A stretch of DNA of 64,000 nucleotides from Xestospongia bergquistia (taxonomy: Eukaryota > Porifera > Demospongiae > Haplosclerida > Petrosiidae). The notes below the pieces were generated by a model. The model saw only the letters and a program-made list of their open reading frames with translations, searched no databases and was not told the DNA's origin. This document shows positions 5,071-62,498 of the stretch, piece after piece. The translations under genes and the position numbers were made by a program. Numbering within the stretch: position 1 is the stretch's first letter; the number at the start of each line of letters is the position of its first letter. The stretch spans positions 24,535,249-24,599,248 of the forward strand of contig OZ014411.1 of NCBI GenBank assembly GCA_963965975.1, in the 5' to 3' direction.

Positions 5071-5392
5071 CTTGAGATATAGCTGATTTCTTTGGTATTC
5101 AATATCATGGATTGAACACAAGGTTCATTATATTGGAGAATTATTGGTGGTGGAGACTACCTGTCTGAGTACATTAATTGTCTTTGAAGTGGTAGTGAAG
5201 TCATTTCAAGTACTGCTAGTCACTAGAATAACTTGAGATATAGCTGATTTCTTTGGTATTCAATATCATGGATTGAACACAAGGTTCATTATATTGGAGA
5301 ATTATTGGTGGTGGAGACTACCTGTCTGAGTACATTAATTGTCTTTGAAGTGGTAGTGAAGTCATTTCAAGTACTGCTAGCCACTAGAATAA
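5071..5392. repeat. 161-bp direct tandem duplication, two copies
   Basis: Copy 1 starts at 5071 and copy 2 at 5232, both with cttgagatatagctgatttc, and they are nearly identical to the end (copy 1 reads gtcactagaataact, copy 2 gccactagaataact). The equivalent place upstream of receptor B (about 10620-10800) has one diverged copy, so the second copy is local and recent. Confidence 0.9.
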
Positions 5393-5555
5393 CTGTCTGC
5401 AATAACAATATAAGTTTTGCCACAGTAAAAAGCTGTCTTTTCGTTTAAGACACCGAAATATGCAATCAATTGTGATGTCACATTCTAAGTCCAACCGCAC
5501 GAGTAACATATCATAATTATGTTTAGTAAGTACAAAAGAATGATATAGTCTCGTT

Positions 5556-36966: not shown

Positions 36967-39900
36967 ATGGAAACTACAGCCTTCATATGGACTTATCTTG
37001 CCCTCCTACTTTTGCCTTCAGCAAACTGTAAGAGATTATATGTATATTTAAGTATTTCTTCTTAGGTTATTGTAGTTATGGTGCTATAAGGCTATATAAC
37101 TCACACAGTACCACACCAAGCGAGGGAGCTGTACAGTACTGTTATTATAATACATGGTATAGTGTATGTGATTATGGATGGGATTGCAGGGAAGCTAACG
37201 TAGTGTGTCGACAATTAGGATATGACAAAGCAGGTAAATCATTGATCAGTAAATAAAGCTATATGACTGCATATATATGTAAACGCCTAAATGTACATGT
37301 TTTTCTATGGTTGCTTGTGGTTCATTTTAAGGAAATGTACAAAGACAGCAAAGATAGTGTTCTTACTACTAATTATACAGGAGCTGCTCTTCTCAACAGT
37401 GATAACACATATGGCTCTTGGAGTAACATTCGTCATTATTATTATACATGCTCTGGATCTGAATCATCTTTGTCCAGTTGTTCAGATAACTACATTAGTT
37501 CCTATTACTGTGAAGAATACAATGATGATGCTGGTGTACGTTGTGTATCTAATATTGGTATGTTCCTTCGTATATATTTTCTTATTAATATTAACAAAGG
37601 TACATCGTGTGCACCAAATGGTAATGTAAGACTAACTGGTGGCAAGAATAACAATGAAGGCGTATTGGAGTACTGTTATAACGGTTACTGGTCACCATTT
37701 TGTCATTTGGATGATGAAGAAGCTACTGTTGCTTGTAAACAACTAGGATATCAACCTTATGCCAGTAAGATTCCAGTTTGTGTAGTAACACTAATTGAGT
37801 AATGATACTATTAAATAGCATGTGATGTAATGTCATTTCATATACAGGTTTCCTCTTGACCTCTGAATATTCCTGGAATGCACAGCACACCTACTCTGCT
37901 TTTAATTACTTTGCTTGTAGTGCTTATGCTACAGAATCTTTGTTGAGTAGCTGTAGCATTCATCCAACTAGTAATACAACTTGTGCTACTGTTTGTACTA
38001 CTCCATATGCTATAAAATGCTATGGTAAGATCTATATATAACATTGTATATACTAACAACTGAGCTAATCACTTTATTAATTTAGTATTGGTTTTTTTGG
38101 AACAACATGGTTGACTTTACTAACCAGCATTATTACATGTCTTTGTTTTTTTCAAAGAATCTAGCTCATGTGTTGATGGTGAAGTACGTCTAGTCAATGG
38201 TTCTATTAGTCAAGAAGGTCGAGTTGAAGTATGTGTTAATGGTGTTTGGGGTACTATATGTAGCACTGGTTGGGATAAAAGGGATGCTTTTTTTGTATGC
38301 AGACAACTTGGTTACACAAACTCAGGTTAATACTACAATAACAATATAGTATATTTACTACCACATCTGTTTGTTAGAGCCCAATATAACAGCAACTGCT
38401 GCTATATATGGTAATGGAGATGGTCCAATTGTTTATTCTAATTTAAATTGTCAAGGATGGAATAAGAATTTCAGTGAATGTAGTAAATCACCCTACTTGA
38501 ATTTTACATGTTCCAGTAATAATATAGCAGGTGTCCTATGTACTGATGGTAAGTATGTGTAGCAAATTAATGTAAACAACAACAACATGTAATAACAACA
38601 TTACACTATAATGTATTGATTTCAGTAAGGTATATAGCTATTACTTAGCTTCTTATGTTTGGACAAGGAATATAATAGTTGAACAAAGTATATGGTATAA
38701 TGATGGAAGTACAGCATAGTTGACAAATTATAAATGTCCTAATTTTTAGCAGTAAGTACTTTTACGATGCTAAATTTAACAGGGGTGTAGCTAAAAAATA
38801 TAGTCCAATAAATTTTATGCATAAAATATAATGATACAGTGTCTTTCTCAGTTGATGTAATGATACTAGTATCAATACATTCTATTGACCCTTTTTTACC
38901 CATGAGACCTAACAGCATATGCTTAGAAGGAAAATTAATTTGTAGCTGCCAACTATATGTACATTTATCAACATGTGAATACATGTATCCATATGAATTA
39001 CTGTCATATATAAATATATATATATATATAATATTATATATATATATAATCTGAGTGTTTCACTATTTAAATATGGCTCATCTTGGCAAAATCAAAGACA
39101 GTTGAGTTCAAAGTATATCTTCAAGAGTTTAATTTCATGTGTATATACATATGTGTGTATGTGTGTGAACTAGTTTTCACTTATGCAGAACTGGAGTATA
39201 CGTTGTCAACTAAGACTATGAAATAACCGAGACGCACGCAATCACAGTCCAAAAAGAACTACTGAATAACATTAAATAAAAACGCAAATGACTCAAATAA
39301 CAGTATAAGAATTGTACAAAAATAGGGCTAACAAAACTCACTCACTAACTGACTGAAAATGCAAAACAAAGGCTTAAATACAAAATAAGTTATGAATATT
39401 TATACGTTACTCAGGCAGACTAAAAGTAAAATTATTATATACTCTGAACTTAAACAAAATCATGAAACAATATTGAAACTAAAACTAGAACTAAGGAATG
39501 TTTAAAATTTTTTTGTCATATTAAAACAACACCACACCATAGAGATGCAAATTTAAAAACCACACTTCTAACTATAATTGGCATTATTTTTGGTAATAGG
39601 TTCTATCTGTGAAATCCCAAAAATTATCATTAATTCTAAGTTTTGCAGATTTCATAGATTGACAATAGACAAAGTTCTCAAACATGTTCAAATGAGCTCC
39701 AATTTCATGTATCTGTGGAATTATAGCCTTTGTGATGATTAATAACAGTTGCTTTGTTAATATTCTAAGTGTTTTCAAAAAGATCATAGGTGCTTTTGTT
39801 TTAACCTTGTTAATAGGCCATTCTATGTTAATCCTTTGTTATCCCTTTGTACATACTTTCTAGCTACAACACCACTTCTATCAAGTAGTACATATTTGTA

Positions 39901-42900: not shown

Positions 42901-45288
42901 ATTGTCAGGTTTAATATTATTGCTGTGTGTGACTTTCAAGAGTGACAAAATGAAATTAAACTGCATCCTATCAATGCCAAACGATATAGCAGTCAATGAA
43001 ATTTGTTAACCACAAACACTAATACGATTAGTGTGATTGACAATGCTCAAAGTTTCTCGCTTACTTGTTTCTCTGCCTACATTTTTAGCTTCCTATAGCT
43101 ATAGTCTTCCACAGACACTACTACAATTCACTTGATCTTTGTAGTTCTTGACAGTTGCTTTCATGGAGTCAATTTCTTCTAAAACAATTATAAGATGTTT
43201 TAAAATTATTATCTTGTTAAAGTTATGAAGAGTTATAACAGAATTATATGCATAAGTTTAATTACTTGATGCACTTTTAATTTTACCAGAACCTGGAAAA
43301 TGTCGGGATGGTCAGATGAGGTTAGAAAATGGTGCTATAGAGAATGAAGGCAGAGTTGAAGTATGTTATAATGGAGTCTGGGGTAGTGTTTGTGATGACA
43401 ACTGGGATAAAACAGATGCTTTAATTGTTTGTCGTCAACTAGGCTTCACTGAATTAGGTATACAAATATATTAACACAACATTATTTTAATAAAATTAAC
43501 TATCAAATAGAACCTGCTGCATATTTGGGATCTACATTTGGTGAATCTATTGGACCTATTATATTTTCCAATGTTCAATGTGGAGGTTGGGAAAATAGTC
43601 TTGAAGAATGTTTGAAGACAAATTACATTGATGTATCTTGTACTAGAGACAGATTGGCAGGAGTGATGTGTGTTGATGGTATGACTATATAATAATTCTC
43701 CAGTCTGTATGATCTATCATAATAGGATGTAATAATGATGCTGTTAGATTAGTAGGTGGAGGTAATGAACAAGAGGGTGTTGTTGAAGTATGTGTTGATA
43801 ATATTTGGGGATTAATAGGAGAAACAGGATGGGATACTAAAGATGCTACTGTTGTGTGTCGTCAATTGGGTTATAATTCAAGTTTTGGTAAGTGTCTTTT
43901 CATTACATATATCTTGTCACATGTTATATACCTTTCATATCTAAGCATGCTTTAACTCTACTATCAATAACTATCAACATCATCATTTGATATTGTTATT
44001 TTCCTTATAGTTTCATTCAATTCTTCACATTTTCAAACACCAAAAAAACCTGTTTTCATGGACGATGTAGCTTGTGTTGGACAAGAGGACATATTAACTG
44101 ACTGTACTAGAAAAACTTATACTTTTAATGAGGCAAAACAAAGATCTCAAAACTTGTTAAATGTTGCTAGAGTTTCTTGTAAACCTTCCTCCAGTTCATC
44201 AAGTATATTAATCAAATTCTCCAGTTCATCAAGTATATTAAAGTTATTGTTAACAATGCTTATTATATAAATAGTTTCAGTTGTTTACTCAACAGTACCA
44301 ACAACTAAGCAAGTTCAAGGATCAAGTATATTAACATTATAAATTAAATACTCATTATTTAATACTTTCAGTTGTTTACTCAACAATACCAACACCTAAG
44401 GAAGTTCAAGAATCAAGTATATTAATATTATTGTTAAAAATGCTCATTATATAAATAATTTCAGTTGTTTACTCAACAATACCAACACCTAAGGAAGTTC
44501 AAGAATCAAGTATATTAATATTATTGTTAAAAATGCTCATTATATAAATACTTTCAGTTGTTTACTCAACAGTACCAACAAATAAACAAGTTCAAGAATC
44601 AAGTATATTAATATTATTGTTAAAAATGCTCATTATATAAATAATTTCAGTTGTTTACTCAACAGTACCAACAAATAAACAAGTTCAAGAATCAAATTCT
44701 CCCAACTTACTGTTGGCTATTTTTGTGATATTATGTATTTTAGTAGTATGTATACTTATTATAGGGTAAGAACAGCCTTACTTATGTCATTATCATAGCT
44801 AAAGTATAAAATAGCTGTGTTATTGTACTCCACTTTCATGAATTATAATAGCCCATTATGACTCTATGTAGTTCATAAACTTGTATATCTCGTGATTAAT
44901 GTGACCTTTTAATTTCTTTTGCCCATTGTTTATAGGAGTGACATAGTGTAATATTGATATGTGCCTGTTTAATATATCATAAATATGATTGATTATAGTG
45001 ATCACTATATACAACTTTACATACATTTATTACTACTACATATCTTTGCAAATAATTAGTTATACACAAAGTTCTATTATGTCTTTTTTATTCTATTATA
45101 GGTTCATTGTAGCAGCAGCATGTTACAGAAAAACATGTCAAGGAAAGCATTTACGTTCACGTCCATTACCACCTGTATTGATGTCTAATATCTTTGATAG
45201 TACTAGATATTCTGAACTACAGTCTGAAGATAAAGATAATGAGATTAATGAAAAAGAAAAATCAACAGAAATTTTTGACACTGACTAA
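36967..45288 (+). CDS. SRCR receptor F: seven SRCR domains, expanded stalk cassettes, truncated tail
   Basis: Exons: 36967-37027, 37066-37233, 37381-37557, 37600-37764, 37848-38024, 38158-38325, 38378-38548, 40041-40199, 41012-41404, 42210-42380, 43290-43457, 43511-43678, 43726-43887, 44011-44232, four cassettes (44281-44325, 44372-44416, 44465-44509, 44558-44602), 44651-44765, 45102-45288; 3012 nt, 1003 aa with all cassettes. Signal peptide 1-20; seven SRCR domains, each split into a WG...CRQLGY half and a Cys-rich half by phase-1 introns, except that halves 4b and 5a share the 393-nt exon. The membrane helix starts [14 protein letters not shown]. The tail has RYSELQS, then a one-base insertion stops it at EIFDTD, losing the NPYQDDE and YEYAQP end of G and H. 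Exon 14 could also end at 44202. Likely role: scavenger-type surface recognition, inferred. Introns 7-10 are 0.8-1.5 kb without visible genes. Confidence 0.87.
44281..44640 (+). repeat. Tandem 93-bp units, each a candidate 45-nt cassette exon
   Basis: Four units (91, 93, 93, 93 bp steps) begin at 44281, 44372, 44465 and 44558; a fifth half-unit begins the membrane exon at 44651. Each unit has a TTTCAG acceptor, 45 coding nt ([14 protein letters not shown] type) in phase 1-1, a donor A/GTATATTAA, and then an open stretch encoding [13 protein letters not shown] with a stop. G and H carry a single version of this arrangement. See findings for the splicing consequences. Confidence 0.85.
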
Positions 45289-46315: not shown

Positions 46316-49300
46316 ATGGCAACCACAGCCTTCATATTGACTTACCTTGCCCTCCTACTTTTGCCTTCAGCAAACTGTAAGAGATTATATGTATATTTAA
46401 GTATTTCTTCTTAGGTTATTGTAGTTATGGTGCTATAAGGCTATATAACTCACACAGTACCACACCAAGCGAGGGAGCTGTACAGTACTGTTATTATAAT
46501 ACATGGTATAGTGTATGTGATTATGGATGGGATTGCAGGGAAGCTAACGTAGTGTGTCGACAATTAGGATATGACAAAGCAGGTAAATCATTGATCAGTA
46601 AATAAAGCTATATGACTGCATATATATGTAAACGCCTAAATGTACATGTTTTTCTATGGTTGCTTGTGGTTCATTTTAAGGAAATGTACAAAGACAGCAA
46701 AGATAGTGTTCTTACTACTAATTATACAGGAGCTGCTCTTCTCAACAGTGATAACACATATGGCTCTTGGAGTAACATTCGTCATTATTATTATACATGC
46801 TCTGGATCTGAATCATCTTTGTCCAGTTGTTCAAATTACTACATTAGTTCCTATTACTGTGTAGCATCCAATGATGATGCTGGTGTACGTTGTGCATCTA
46901 ATAGTGGTATGTTCCTTAGTATATATTTTCTTATTAATATTAATAAAGGTACATCATGTGCACAAAATGGTAATTTAAGACTAACTGGTGGCAAGAATAA
47001 CAATGAAGGAGTACTGGAATACTGTTATAATGGTTACTGGTCACCATTTTGTAATTTGGATGATGAAGAAGCTACTGTTGCTTGTAAACAACTAGGATAT
47101 CAACCTTATGCCAGTAAGATTCCAGTTTGTGTAGTAACACTAATTGAGTAATGATACTATTAAATAGCATGTGATGTAATGTCATTTCATATACAGGTTT
47201 CCTCTTGACCTCTGAATATTCCTGGAGTGCCCAGCACACCTACTCTGCTTTTAATTACTTTGCTTGTAGTGCTTATGCTACAGAGTCTTCAATAAGTAGC
47301 TGTAGCTTTCATCCGACTAGTAATTCAGCTTGTGCTACTGTTTGTACTACTCCATATGCTATAAAATGCTATGGTAAGATCTATATATAACATTGTATAT
47401 ACTAACAACTGAGCTAATCACTTTATTAATTTAGTATTGTTTTTTTTGGAACAACATGGTTGACTTTACTAACCAGCATTATTACATGTCTTTGTTTTTT
47501 TCAAAGAATCTAGCTCATGTGTTGATGGTGAAGTACGTCTAGTCAATGGTTCTATTAGTCAAGAAGGTCGAGTAGAAGTATGTGTCAATGGTATTTGGGG
47601 TACTATATGTGGTACAGGTTGGAGTAAGACAAATGCTTTTGTTTTTTGCAAACAACTTGGTTACACTAACTCAGGTTAATACTATAATAACATTACAGTA
47701 TAGTTATGACCACATCTATTTTTTTAGAGCCTAATATAACAACAGATGCTGCTATATATGGTAGTGGAGATGGTCCAATTGTTTATTCTAATTTAAATTG
47801 TCAAGGATGGCAAAGGACTTTAAGTGAATGTAGTAAATCATCCTACTTGCATTTTACATGTTCCAGTAATAATATAGCTGGTGTCCTTTGTACTGATGGT
47901 AAGTAATGTACAAGTCAATGTACATAATAACAACAGCATGTAATAACATCATTATACTAATTGGTTTTGATATGGTATGTTAGTATTACTTAGCTTTTGA
48001 TGTTTGGACTAGAAATATAATAGTTAAACAAGATATATAGAATAATGATGGAAGTACAGTATAGTTGACAAAGTATAAGTCTCCTGATATTTATCAATGT
48101 AAATATAAATGTTTATAGTGCTGAGTTTAACAGTTATGTTGCCAAAAACTATAGCAATGTACACAAATAAAATGCATGCATGAATATTATGATATAATGT
48201 CTTTCTCTGTTGATCTAATAATACAAAGCAATACTTGTCTTAAGACATGCATGACCTTGTATTATAATTACATGTTATTGGCCCTATTGTTCATTGGTTT
48301 TACTCATGAGATCTAATGACATATATATCAACATGTGTTTATAATGAAAAATAATTTGTACCTGCCAACTTTATGTAGTTGCATTTTTAACATATGAGTA
48401 CATGTATCATATATATAAACTGGAGTGTTTCACTATTTAAATATGGCTCAAATCTTGGCAAACTCAAAGGCAGTTGAGTTCAAAGTATACCTTAAGTTTA
48501 ATTTCATGTATGAATGTATCTATGTATGTATGTATGTATAGTTCTCACAATGGTAAATAATTAAGCCTTAAAAAACACAGTGTTACCAAGTAAACAAAAG
48601 TCAGGTTAACAAACTTATACAGAACTTGACTATACTTCTTATTTTAAACCACACCTCCAACTACAATTATACAATTAGTATTAGATTTGGCAATAGGAGT
48701 TTCTGTTACACAAATGCATAGACTTAGAATATTAACAAAGCAACTACTATTATTCCTCACGATTTCTATAACTGCACAAATTAATGCATCCAATTGGAGC
48801 ACATTTGATTATGATGGGGAATTTGTGTTGAATCTGTAAAACCTACTATCAATATTAGTTTTGCAGATTTCACAGATGTTTTTAAAAGGATCAAAGATGA
48901 TTTTGTCTCTATGCATAGCCTTGTCAATAGGCAATTCTATGTTTGTCATTTACTATCTCTTTATAGCCACTATTTAGCTACAACTATAGAAGCTAAGGAC
49001 AAACATTCTATTCCTGCTTGTTAAAGCAGAATTATTCAGAGTTGCCCTCGGCTTCAGTATATAACAGAATTACAATATACAATCAAAATCCAGAACCCAA
49101 TCCAACTGGAAATGTCTTGCTGACTCTTATTTCTAAAAGATGTCTTATAATACTCGTGCTCCATGTTTTATTAAGTAACTGGAGAAGCCTAATAAAAATT
49201 AGAAATGACATACATGACAAAAATGGAATAAAGAAAAAGGAATTATAACCAAACAACTGACTTGTTAATTTGAATTTTCAAATACACTAAGATGGATAGA

Positions 49301-52300: not shown

Positions 52301-54033
52301 AGCTGACATCAACTATAATGCTTACTTATTGATGCACCTCTAATTCCACCAGAACCTGGAGATTGTCAGGAAGGTCAGATAAGACTTAAAGATGGTGCTA
52401 TAGACAATGAAGGTAGAGTTGAAGTATGTTATAATGGAGTCTGGGGTAGTGTTTGTGATAACAACTGGGATGAAACAGATGCTTTAATTGTTTGTCGTCA
52501 ACTAGGCTTCACTGAATTAGGTATACAAATATATTAAACAACATCACAACATTATTATTATTACATTACCTATCAAATAGAACCTGTTGTATATTTGGGA
52601 TCTACATTTGGTGAATCTATTGGACCTATTATATTTTCTAATGTTCAATGTGGAGGTTGGGAAAATAGTCTTGAAGAATGTTTGAAGACAAATTACATTG
52701 ATGTATCTTGTACTAGAGACAGATTGGCAGGAGTGATGTGTGTTGATGGTATGACTATATAATAATTCTCCAGTCTGTGTGATCTATCATAATAGGATGT
52801 AATAATGATGCTGTTAGATTAGTAGGTGGAGGTAATGAACAAGAGGGTGTTGTTGAAGTATGTGTTAATAATATTTGGGGATTAATAGGAGAAACAGGAT
52901 GGGATATTGAAGATGCTACTGTTGTGTGTCGTCAATTGGGTTATAATTCAAGTTTTGGTAAGTGTCTTTTCATTACATATATCTTGTCATTTGTTATATC
53001 CCCTTCATATCTAAGCATGCGTTAACTCTACTATCAATATCATCATTTAATATTGTGTATTTTCCTTATAGTTTCAATCAATACTTCACATTTTCAAATT
53101 CCAAGAAAAGCTGTTTTTATGGATAATTTAGCTTGTGTTGGACAAGAGGACATATTGACTGACTGTACTAGAACAACTTATACTTTTGATGAGGCAAAAC
53201 AAAGAGCTCAAAATGTTTTAAATGTTGCTAGTGTTTCTTGTATGATGCCGCAACTTTCCTTGAGTTCATCAAGTATATTAATATTATTATTGTTAATAAT
53301 GTTCATTATGTAAATAATTTCAGTTGTTTACTCAACAGTACCAACACCTAAACAAGTTCAAGAATCAAGCTCTAGCAACTTACTGTTGGCAATATTGGTG
53401 ATATTATGCATTTTAGTAGTATGTATAATTTTAGGGTAAGCACGCCTTATTTATGTTATTATCATAGCTGAAATATAAAATAGCTATGTTATTTTACTTC
53501 ACTTTCATATATCATAATAGCCAATTGACTACTATTTAGAACATGACTTTTAATATGGTTCATAAATTTGTGTATATTTTATGATTAATGTGACTTTTTA
53601 AATTCCTATTGCTCATTATTTATAAAAGAGTTTGATATTGATATGTGCCTGTTTTTATATATCATAAATAAGATAGATTGTAATAATTATTATAACTTTA
53701 CATGCATACATTTATTACTACTACATATCTTTGCAAATAATTAGTTATACACAAAGTTCTATTATGTCTTTTTTATTCTATTATAGGTTCATTGTAGCAG
53801 CTGCATGTTACAGAAAAACTTGCCAAGGAAAGCGTTTACATTTACCTTCACGTCCATTACCACCTGTATTGATGTCTAATATCTTTGATAGTACTAGATA
53901 TTGTGAACTACAGTCTGAAGATGAGGATGATGAGATTAATGAAAAAGAAAAACCATCAGAAAGTTTTCCACTAAATAAAGAAAATCCCTACCAAGATGAC
54001 GAACACATTTATGAATATGCACAACCTAAGTAA
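46316..54033 (+). CDS. SRCR receptor G: seven SRCR domains, single-pass, full tyrosine tail
   Basis: Sixteen exons: 46316-46376, 46415-46582, 46730-46906, 46949-47113, 47197-47373, 47507-47674, 47728-47898, 49522-49680, 50169-50555, 51320-51490, 52353-52520, 52581-52748, 52796-52957, 53072-53272, 53324-53435, 53787-54033; 2862 nt, 953 aa, all phases match. Signal peptide 1-20, seven SRCR domains with the same split-exon layout as F, a short serine/threonine stalk, a helix near residues 850-870 ([18 protein letters not shown]), and an acidic tail with [25 protein letters not shown] and YEYA tyrosines could serve endocytosis or SH2 binding. Skipping the last intron donor of exon 14 extends the frame to a hydrophobic end (stop 53311-53313). 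The 5' third is a patchwork of F-like and H-like sequence. Role as pattern or self/non-self receptor is inferred. Confidence 0.9.
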
Positions 54034-55046: not shown

Positions 55047-58000
55047 ATGGCAACCACAGCCTTCGTATTGACTTATCTTGCCCTCCTACTTTTGCCTTCA
55101 GCAAACTGTAAGAGATTATATGTGTATTTAAGTATTTCTTCTTAGGTTATTGTAGTTATGGTGCTATAAGGCTATATAACTCACACAGTACCACACCAAG
55201 CGAGGGATCTGTACAATACTGTTATTATAATACATGGTATAGTGTATGTGATTATGGATGGGATTGCAGGGAAGCTAACGTAGTGTGTCGACAATTAGGA
55301 TATGGCAAAGCAGGTAAATCATTGATCAGTAAATAAAGCTATATGACTGCATATATATGTAAACACCCAAAAGTATATGTTTTTCTGTGGTTGCTGTGGT
55401 TCATTTTAAGGAAATGTACAAAGACAGCAAAGATAGTGTTCTTACTACTAATTATATATAGGAGCTGCTCTTCTCAACAGTGATAACACATATGGTTATT
55501 GGAGCAACATTCGTCATTATTATTATACATGCTCTGGATCTGAATCATCTTTGTCCAGTTGTTCAAATTACTACATTAGTTCCTATTACTGTGTAGCATC
55601 CAATGATGATGCTGGTGTACGTTGTGCATCTAATATTGGTATGTTCCTTAGTATATATATTTTCTTATTAATATTAATAAAGGTACATCATGTGCACAAA
55701 ATGGTAATTTAAGACTAACTGGTGGCAAGAATAACAATGAAGGAGTACTGGAATACTGTTATAATGGTTACTGGTCACCATTTTGTAATTTGGATGATGA
55801 AGAAGCTACTGTTGCTTGTAAACAACTAGGATATCAACCTTATGCCAGTAAGATTCCAGTTTGTGTAGTAACACTAACTGAGTAGTGACATTGTATATAC
55901 TAATTGAATAACATGATAAAATGTTATTATATGTACAGGCTTTCTCTTGTCATCCGAATATTCCTGGAATGTACAGCACACCTACTCTGCTTTTAATTAC
56001 TTTGCTTGTAGTGCTTATGCTACAGAGTCTTCATTAAGTAGCTGTAGCTTTCATCCAACTAGTAATTCAGTTTGTGCTACTGGTTGTACTACTCCATATG
56101 CTATAAAATGCTATGGTAAGATCTATTAACTACAATGCTGTATTAACAATAAATTATTTTACCAATTTTGTATCGTTTTTTGTGACAGTATGGGTAACTA
56201 TACTAACTAGCATTATTCTCATGACTTATTTTTATAGAATCTAGCTCATGTGTTGATGGTGAAGTACGTCTAGTCAACGGTTCTATTAGTCAAGAAGGTA
56301 GAGTTGAAGTATGTGTCAATGGTGTTTGGGGTACTATATGTGGTACTGGTTGGAGTAAAACAGATGCTTTTGTTTTATGCAAACAACTTGGTTACACTAA
56401 CTCAGGTTAATACTATACTAACATTACAGTATAGTTATGACTGTATCTGTGTTTTTAGAGCCTAATATAACAACAAATGCTGCTATATATGGTAGTGGAG
56501 ATGGTCCAATTGTTTATTCTAATTTAAATTGTCAAGGATGGCAAAGGAGTTTTAGTGAATGTAGTAAATCATCCTACTTGCATTTTGTATGTTCCAGTAA
56601 TAATATAGCTGGTGTCCTTTGTACTGATGGTAAGTATGTGATGCAAGTTAATGTACACAATAACACCATGTAATAACACCATTACACAATAATGTATTTG
56701 TTTCAATATGGTATATGGCTATTATATTACTTAGGTTATAATATTTGGACTAGGAATATAATAGTTAAACAAAGTACATAGAATAATGATGGAAGTACAG
56801 TATAGTAGACAAATTTTAAATGTCATAATATTTAGCAGAGTAAGTACAAAAATGCTGAATTAACATGGTTGTAAGTGTAACTAAAAACTATAGACATATG
56901 CACAAATAAAGTGCATGCATAAAATATAATGAATAGTGTCTTTCTCTGTTGATAGGTGATATATGTCTAAGACATCCATCACATTGTATCTTTACATCCT
57001 ATTGACCCTTTTTTATATCCATATATCAACAAGTGCTTATATATAAGGAAAAAATAGTTTGTAGCTGCCAATTGTATGTAGCTACGTACGTGTATCTATA
57101 TGCATTACTGTCATCTATATAAACTGGAGTGTCTAACAATTTAAATATGGCTCATATCCTGGCAAAAAAGGGCATTTGAGGTGAAAGCATATACCTTGAA
57201 AACTTTAATTTTGTATATATAATATATGTGTGTGATGACCATTGCTACTTCCTAGTAGTAACGATGGGTTCAAAATATCTAGAGTAGGATTTATGATGAC
57301 ATCTTCTAATGCTTCTCTTAATGTCTTTACTACTATAACTGACTAAAACCCTTTTAAAGACTGATTATAATGAGAATTTACAGTTGGCCAATCATGGGAA
57401 AAAGTTTAAACAATAAAAAAAGCAAGTTGAGGCTTGCCTTTCTGCTTAGTCAAGGATGGGAAAATAGATTACATGATGCATGTGTGTTATTACGTATGTG
57501 TATATATATATTTGAACTAATTTTAACCAAAACTAAATTAAAAGACATTCAAAATGTTTTATCAACTAAACAATACTATACTATAGAGATGAAAAAACCA
57601 CATCCCTAACTATAATTAGGGTTTCTATCTGTGAAATCTGTAATACTTATAAAGTTCCCAACCACAAGTAAATGACTCAGTTGCATGCACCTGTGCAATT
57701 ATGAGCATTATAATGATTGTAGCCTTTGTTCTTATTTAGATTGTGTTGAAGGTCAACTTAGATTAGTTGGTGGTAGTACTAGCTCTGAGGGTACAGTTGA
57801 AGTATGTCATGATGGCTTATGGGGACTTGTTACTGATGCTGGTTGGGATACATTAGATGCTATGGTTGTTTGTAGACAATTACATTTACCTACACAAGGT
57901 AAGATGACAACATAGTGTAAAATATTCTATATGCATGCATGATTAGGACAATAGAATACCATATAGGAGATTTCATTGGTCCACAAATAATTTTGTTAAA

Positions 58001-61000: not shown

Positions 61001-62498
61001 ATTATTATAATATTATCTATCAAATAGAACCTGTTGTATATTTGGGATCTACATTTGGTGAATCTATTGGACCTATTATATTTTCTAATGTTCAATGTGG
61101 AGGTTGGGAAAATAGTCTTGAAGAATGTTTGAAGACAAATTACATTGATGTATCTTGTACTAGAGACAGATTGGCAGGAGTGATGTGTGTTGATGGTATG
61201 ACTATATAATAATTCTCCAGTCTGTGTGATCTATCATAATAGGATGTAATAATGATGCTGTTAGATTAGTAGGTGGAGGTAATGAACAAGAGGGTGTTGT
61301 TGAAGTATGTGTTAATAATATTTGGGGATTAATAGGAGAAACAGGATGGGATACTAAAGATGCTACTGTTGTGTGTCGTCAATTGGGTTATAATTCAAGT
61401 TTTGGTAAGTGTCTTTTCATTACATATATCTTGTCATTTGTTATATCCCCTTCATATCTAAGCATGCTTTAACTCTACTATCAATATCATCATTTAATAT
61501 TATGTATTTTCCTTATAGTTTCAATTAATACTTCACATTTTCAAATTCCAAGAAAAGCTGTTTTTATGGATAATTTAGCTTGTGTTGGACAAGAGGACAT
61601 ATTGACTGACTGTACTAGAACAACTTATACTTTTGATGAGGCAAAACAAAGAGCTCAAAATGTTTTAAATGTTGCTAGTGTTTCTTGTATAATGCCACAA
61701 CTTTCCTTGAGTTCATCAAGTATATTAATATTATTATTGTTAATAATGTTCATTATATAAATAATTTCAGTTGTTTACTCAACAGTACCAACACCCAAAG
61801 AAGATCAAGAATCAAGCTCTAGCAACTTACTGTTGTTGGCAATTTTGGTGATATTATGCATTTTAGTAGTATGTATAATTTTTATAGGGTAAGCACAGCC
61901 TTATTTATGTTATTATCATAGCTGAAATATAAAATAGCTGTGTAATTTTACTTCACTTTCATAAATTATAATAGTATAAGAGTACTATTTATAACACCAC
62001 TTTTTATATGATTCATAAACATGTATATTTTTTACAATTAATGTGACCTTTTAAAATACTATTGTCCATTGTTTATAAAAGTGATGGTGAAATTTTGATA
62101 TATTATATATATATATATATCACTAATAACATTGAATAAAGTCATTGTTATTTAGCTATACGTACATATATATATACATACATTTAACTGCTACATATCT
62201 CTCATAACAAATAACTAGTTATACATAAAGTTATACTATGTCTTTTTTATGCTATTATAGGCTCATGGCAGCAGCTGCATATTGCAGAAAAACTTCCCAA
62301 GGAAAGTGTTTGCATTCACGTCCATTACCAGCTGTAACAACATCTAATAGTGATAGTGTTAGATATTCTGAACTACAGTCTGATGATGAAGATGATGAGA
62401 TTAATGAAAAAGAAAAACCAACAAAAAATTTTCCACTAACTAAAGAAAATCCCTACCAAGATGATGAACACATTTATGAGTATGCACAACCTAAGTAA
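55047..62498 (+). CDS. SRCR receptor H: seven SRCR domains, single-pass, ITIM-like tail
   Basis: Sixteen exons: 55047-55107, 55146-55313, 55462-55638, 55683-55847, 55939-56115, 56238-56405, 56459-56629, 57740-57898, 58472-58858, 59626-59796, 60800-60967, 61028-61195, 61243-61404, 61519-61719, 61771-61888, 62261-62498; 2859 nt, 952 aa, all phases match. Signal peptide ([20 protein letters not shown]), seven SRCR domains as in F and G, stalk [18 protein letters not shown], membrane helix, acidic tail. The tail has SVRYSELQS, whose V-x-Y-x-x-L fits the ITIM consensus, while F and G have T at that place; it also keeps [15 protein letters not shown]. The start lies directly after a foreign upstream block, so its transcription is probably controlled differently. 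A hydrophobic alternative end after exon 14 (stop 61758-61760) is conserved. Recognition role inferred. Confidence 0.9.

Follow-up and report, generated by a model that had tools for sequence, protein, structure and literature searches.

The receptor gene termed here F raises the question of how a tandem array of short exons came to lie in front of the membrane helix of a sponge scavenger receptor, and how many of these exons reach the transcript. The window is the whole 64,000-nt stretch of Xestospongia bergquistia DNA that was analysed (C1:24535249-24599248 of a 146.46-Mb genome in 21 contigs; GC ~0.32), and positions are counted from its first letter. F belongs to the SRCR superfamily (PF00530, 1e-123, with 7 SRCR stretches in a hand-edited gene-finder model). 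The features of F that bear on the question are given below, the transmembrane (TM) helix being assigned by eye.

44011-44202, + strand: last SRCR exon of F, ending TCATCAA, phase 1 (gene finder, sequence and scores)
44203-44232, + strand: 30-nt duplicated stretch between two identical GTATATTA donors, holding AATCAAATTCTCC at 44210
44281-44325, + strand: stalk exon copy 1, 45 nt, phase 1-1 (sequence and gene finder)
44372-44416, + strand: stalk exon copy 2, 45 nt, phase 1-1 (sequence and gene finder)
44465-44509, + strand: stalk exon copy 3, identical to copy 2, 45 nt, phase 1-1 (sequence and gene finder)
44558-44602, + strand: stalk exon copy 4, 45 nt, phase 1-1 (sequence and gene finder)
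44651-44765, + strand: stalk exon copy 5 (44651-44695, identical to copy 4) fused with the TM helix
45102-45288, + strand: exon for the cytoplasmic tail of F, shortened by indels in comparison with G and H

The exon-intron array occupies 44228-44695 (+) and is detected by TRF with a period of 93 bp, 5.1 copies, 90% matches and a score of 747. Its exons start at 44281, 44372, 44465, 44558 and 44651, which reproduces the 93-bp unit and the steps of 91, 93, 93 and 93 bp given in the initial annotation. TTTCAG lies directly upstream of all five copies and GTATATTA directly downstream of copies 1-4, so the earlier description of an acceptor, a 45-nt exon in phase 1-1 and a donor holds for these four; equally, the fifth unit (44651) lacks the donor and runs on into the membrane helix (by eye), as had been stated. 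With a length that is a multiple of three (45 nt), symmetric phase (1-1) and matching splice ends, the copies have the properties of CD44-like cassettes, and the proposed frame-keeping units of about 15 residues stand. The introns of the array measure 48, 46, 48, 48 and 48 nt, the first being 78 nt long when counted from the first of the two identical donors. Translated as A plus exon, the five copies give three 15-residue sequences, two of which are seen twice, and none of them shows frame damage or a stop. The repeat is in frame; the last SRCR exon precedes it and the TM helix follows (helix by eye).

The array is not a chance product; 20 first-order Markov versions of the window contained no array with a period of at least 30 at score 50. 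Misassembly is disfavoured as a simple artefact because the copies differ, the exact copy number being that of one assembly. In the 204 kb examined, five arrays with a period of at least 50 and at least 2.5 copies were found, that of F among them, so such minisatellites are common here. Elsewhere in the window there is a near-perfect tandem duplication of 161 bp (5071-5394, 99% matches). Past the window, an 84-bp repeat in 3 copies (161741-161991 in window numbering), open in one frame, lies near retroelement-like sequence.

The initial annotation held that the paralogues G and H have no such array. Each of them indeed contains one copy (53324 and 61771), with the following features.

53273-53323, + strand: G stalk intron, 51 nt, single (donor by alignment; the gene finder chose 53240)
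53324-53435, + strand: G stalk/TM exon, single copy
61720-61770, + strand: H stalk intron, 51 nt, single
61771-61888, + strand: H stalk/TM exon, single copy

A 28-base pattern, made up of TTTCAG and the initial 22 bases of the exon and allowing at most 3 mismatches, occurs genome-wide at 7 places, 5 in F and 1 each in G and H, and the reversed pattern, used as a genome-wide control, gave no matches. F, G and H belong to a cluster of at least 7 receptor genes with a common tail, of which I, J, K and L lie downstream of the window (seven tail matches, E 7.7e-52 to 4.4e-22, with DNA matches too). In a viral-contig search for a relative of this tail, 22 stretches matched by pattern and none was confirmed. 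The genome has at least 163 PF00530 matches, with the best 150 of 4312 first-look candidates scored, which is a large SRCR expansion. In nine loci scanned by TRF with a period of at least 30, namely four 10-kb SRCR stretches (L036-L039) and the weakly matching L015 and L018-L021, no exon-intron array of this kind was found.

Repeats of other kinds are present in these loci. Five near-identical 45-bp repeats (15 residues) lie in an open frame near SRCR matches at L020:1769-1995, and they read as a proline-rich tail beyond a membrane-helix-like segment (by eye). Two 36-bp arrays in open frame, reading PSPTPSPS, are located just ahead of an SRCR-like stretch in L036 (7162-7249 and 9823-9910, by eye), and L019 contains a 30-bp array of 2.2 copies. 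The array of F is unlike the repeats in L020 and L036 in that its unit includes an intron.

In the nine SRCR exons of F that were compared with G there are no stops (dS 0.075, dN 0.050, ratio 0.67). After indels relative to G and H, the tail of F ends in IFDTD and is devoid of the 16-residue end of G and H. This last stretch, missing from F, holds IYEYAQPK in both paralogues. Judged from its sequence, F would be either a long-stalk, short-tail receptor or a gene beginning to decay.

The splice sites of the array were compared with those of the paralogues. Over CAAGTATAT the array donors are identical to the donor of the G/H stalk intron as placed by alignment. The last 12 bases of introns 3 and 5 are equal to those of G/H; one letter is different there in introns 1 and 4, and two in intron 2. 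When the four distinct introns of the array are aligned, 0 of the 12 columns at the splice ends are variable, compared with 13 of the 36 columns in the interior (Fisher one-sided p 0.012). With 6 variable columns out of 45, the exons, too, are less variable than the interiors of the introns (p 0.020). Few sequences enter either test (4 types of intron, 3 of exon); the p values are uncorrected and the copies have a shared history. Of the differences among the three exon types, 5 alter the amino acid and 1 does not (by eye).

Scored with tables built on 25 hand-picked F/G/H introns from gene-finder models, many of them the same intron across genes, the array sites are weak. The donor, with 3.7 bits, is near the bottom of the leave-one-out range of 3.1-10.2 spanned by 11 other distinct donors, and every one of the 15 other acceptors (1.2-8.5) scores above those of the array (-2.9 to 0.9). 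The G/H acceptor scores -0.5, and the scores of the G/H sites equal, or nearly equal, those of the array. Short introns are common in these genes, 13 of the 25 inferred ones being 38-60 nt long. In H, a 44-nt intron is predicted at 55639-55682, the stop-free equivalent being read through in F (within 37381-37764) and G (within 46730-47113). A gene finder blind to the array recovered the exact ends of copies 2-4 and of the fused copy 5 and placed the start of copy 1 at 44275, via an in-frame acceptor 6 nt upstream; it works with generic splice weights and codon scores, arbitrarily weighted, and in other parts of F and H it predicted several very small exons that are doubtful. All five array introns run into an in-frame TAA, and so do the stalk introns of G and H. 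Retention of an array intron would stop translation 5 to 12 codons in, or 22 codons in from the first of the two donors. In AT-rich introns a stop is to be expected nearly always, and decay of transcripts that retain an intron is likely.

Two identical donors 30 nt apart, at 44203 and 44233, precede the array, and a third candidate is found at 44179. Use of the second donor would extend the last SRCR exon to 44232, and use of the GT at 44179 would shorten it. With both strands of the window searched, the AATCAAATTCTCC motif of the intervening duplicated stretch has one further occurrence, at 44690 in the TM exon of F. The 30-bp duplication looks like the product of a template switch. In all three genes the GT upstream of CAAGTATAT scores higher (44179 in F, 5.4 bits; 53240 in G, 6.5 bits; 61687 in H, 4.3 bits), which counts against the donor placement in G and H. 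Neither the acceptors nor the array copies, each of which has a donor of its own, are affected by this choice. The gene finder ended the SRCR exon of G at the upstream donor (53239) and used CAAGTATAT in F and H. The frame of G is kept with either donor. The downstream donor was preferred because the upstream GT would remove the cysteine of VSC, which we take, from the domain pattern, to be the last SRCR cysteine; this is a matter of judgement.

The single-copy paralogues suggest how the array may have started. The donor of the G/H stalk intron reads TTCATCAA|GTATATT and the stalk exon, 96 bp further, reads AGAATCAA|GCTCTAG; both contain ATCAAG. The junctions in F, GGATCAAGTATATT and GAATCAAGTATATT, are the product expected from joining two ATCAAG sites. 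Probably a gene of the G/H type with a single copy underwent a tandem duplication between the two hexamers. The first of these spans the donor that closes the last SRCR exon; the second lies 96 bp further, in the stalk/TM exon. The duplication junction would fuse the stalk exon to a donor, and joining from ATCAAG to ATCAAG thereby provides each new copy with its own donor and keeps the phase. The array would then have expanded stepwise via unequal exchange or slippage. Exon copies 2 and 3 are identical, as are copies 4 and 5; introns 3 and 5 are identical and intron 4 differs from them by 1 letter, whereas 11 substitutions and 2 gap columns separate intron 2 from intron 1. These identical exon pairs and near-identical introns, together with the distance between introns 1 and 2, point to growth in several steps. 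This order of events is what we infer; the anatomy of the array, the single copy in G and H, the hexamer match and the conserved splice ends are direct observations.

In the downstream paralogues I, J, K and L no stalk array was found by TRF, which detected only a short 9-bp repeat in the tail of L. In these genes the SRCR exon and the TM exon are separated by an additional diverged stalk exon, which measures 57 nt in K. Nine pairs were aligned against shuffles, and the p values, with a floor of 0.0005, are uncorrected. The G stalk aligns better than shuffled sequences with the extra exon of K (p 0.001) and with that of I, J and L (p 0.0005 each). The same is true of F2 with K2 (p 0.0015) and of the SRCR-fused stalk end of K (unit 1) with K unit 2 (p 0.0005). 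The match of K2 to the start of the TM exon is weak (p 0.026), that of G to K1 is not significant (p 0.058), and F2 and K1 showed no similarity in the shuffle test (p 0.36). These alignments indicate that the stalk was duplicated earlier in the family too, before the array of F. The single copy in G and H may hence be a loss and not the ancestral state of the whole family; G and H are still the nearest comparison for F. In paralogue I, two TAA codons fall within the tail match (C1:24619902-24620141; L009, L024), and in the stalk of paralogue L (L028, around position 600) the ATTTTAG acceptor of J and K is missing before the TM exon, where I differs as well.

As to the transcript, we assign a probability of roughly 0.6 to the reading that F carries an exon-intron minisatellite grown from the ATCAAG duplication, with full inclusion of its copies and a repeat stalk of ~75 residues. 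Each 46-48-nt intron would be removed singly, leaving all five copies in most transcripts and extending the repeat stalk from 15 residues to ~75; stalk length would then differ among alleles and paralogues more than among splice forms. Full inclusion is put first because the introns are 46-48 nt long and exon skipping is rare in Amphimedon queenslandica: according to the available part of PMC4432959, skipping accounts for 1.8% and intron retention for 45.0% of supported alternative splicing events in this sponge. The available part of PMC6142364 formulates intron definition for genes that combine short introns and long exons, and finds that it does not apply uniformly across eukaryotes; under this model a failure would result in retention more often than in skipping. 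The same text associates short exons with skipping and gives 73.1% as the share of multiples of three among the highly alternative exons of Amphimedon. Against full inclusion stand the weak splice sites and the short 45-nt exons, unlike the long exons of intron definition. The fully included stalk may act on reach or shedding.

The same weak splice scores would suit true cassettes as supposed in the initial annotation, i.e. a copy number varying per transcript and stalks of ~15-75 repeat residues in steps of 15. The four internal 45-nt copies in phase 1-1 with matching splice ends agree with this, and so do the association of short exons with skipping and the prevalence of multiples of three among strongly alternative Amphimedon exons (available part of PMC6142364). 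However, introns of 46-48 nt and a 1.8% share of skipping in Amphimedon (PMC4432959, as above) argue against cassettes, and we regard them as unlikely. More doubtful is a self-propagating exon-intron minisatellite, here in an immune-type receptor of a sponge, that would set stalk length across alleles and also via variable inclusion.

A neutral minisatellite, mostly spliced over or residing in a decaying gene, would leave a protein like that of G and H. Five long-period arrays within 204 kb, the tail of F shortened by indels and the excess of amino-acid changes among exon types (by eye) are in line with this. On the other hand, none of the copies is damaged in frame or by a stop, the splice ends are invariant while intron interiors have diverged, and the nine SRCR exons of F compared with G are all open, so that neutrality appears improbable. 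Intron retention as the key product, with a receptor losing its membrane anchor and more copies offering more chances for it, fits the in-frame TAA codons and the 45.0% share of retention in Amphimedon, but it is very improbable, as G and H do likewise with one intron, a stop is to be expected in AT-rich introns, and the resulting transcripts would likely be degraded. Mutually exclusive splicing was set aside: no feature that would block the joining of neighbours was seen, phase does not enforce exclusion, and these genes have other inferred introns as short as 38 nt.

Under the preferred reading, an exon-intron minisatellite with full inclusion, the array of F shows how a hexamer common to a donor and the next exon lets duplication yield exons that are in frame and complete from the start. 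Should the copies vary in number or inclusion, the locus would offer a simple natural test of the effect of stalk length on a scavenger receptor in an early-branching animal. If the self-propagating minisatellite were true instead, a single locus would give rise to graded receptor heights or shedding rates. A literature search of open-licence papers, mainly of top-ranked results, found no report of the array of F.

Repeated exons of 81 bases were reportedly described in a schistosome by Davis et al. in 1988. The micro-exon genes of Schistosoma resemble F in having short exons, mostly multiples of three; as described in the available text of PMC10526429, their products are secreted and their introns range from 100 to almost 5000 bp, whereas F encodes a membrane receptor with introns of 46-48 nt. 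With these introns and the TM helix of its model (by eye), F is not a micro-exon gene of this type. It is closer to tandem exon duplications (e.g. obscurin; Ivanov and Pervouchine 2022, PMC9013439, as far as its available text describes them), which likewise consist of adjacent homologous exons and introns produced by genomic duplication: F has neighbouring homologous exons within one gene, and the flanking intron is duplicated too. It differs from them in that its exons (45 nt) and introns (46-48 nt) are very short, its copies near-identical and its location a receptor stalk.

Among receptors, the variant exons of CD44 (PMC8699317, available part) also comprise several stem-lengthening exons between the ligand-binding part and the membrane, but their inclusion is known to be alternative, while that of the near-identical copies of F is at most putatively so. 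In DC-SIGNR/CLEC4M, as in F, a repeated unit builds an extracellular receptor neck; its 23-residue repeats lie inside exon 4 and are reported as polymorphic (available parts of PMC2971551, PMC3261175 and PMC11945572), whereas each repeat of F has its own intron and F was read from one assembly. The repeat of F, in frame and placed between the binding part and the membrane (helix by eye), resembles such receptor necks in this respect. Stalk exon 13 of ALCAM encodes 13 juxtamembrane residues, and its loss leads to ten-fold more shedding (available part of PMC5816644); it is a single exon, in contrast to the array of F.

The sponge SRCR genes of PMC10855680, taken as those of Amphimedon queenslandica, number 296, of which 158 are in tandem arrays according to its available part, so that large clusters occur there as here; the terms "stalk" and "alternative splicing" are absent from its main text. 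Tandem duplicated symmetric exons are an already known kind, to which F adds another case. With a stalk that is probably longer than in its nearest relatives G and H, F is a tidy example of a known route of gene growth.
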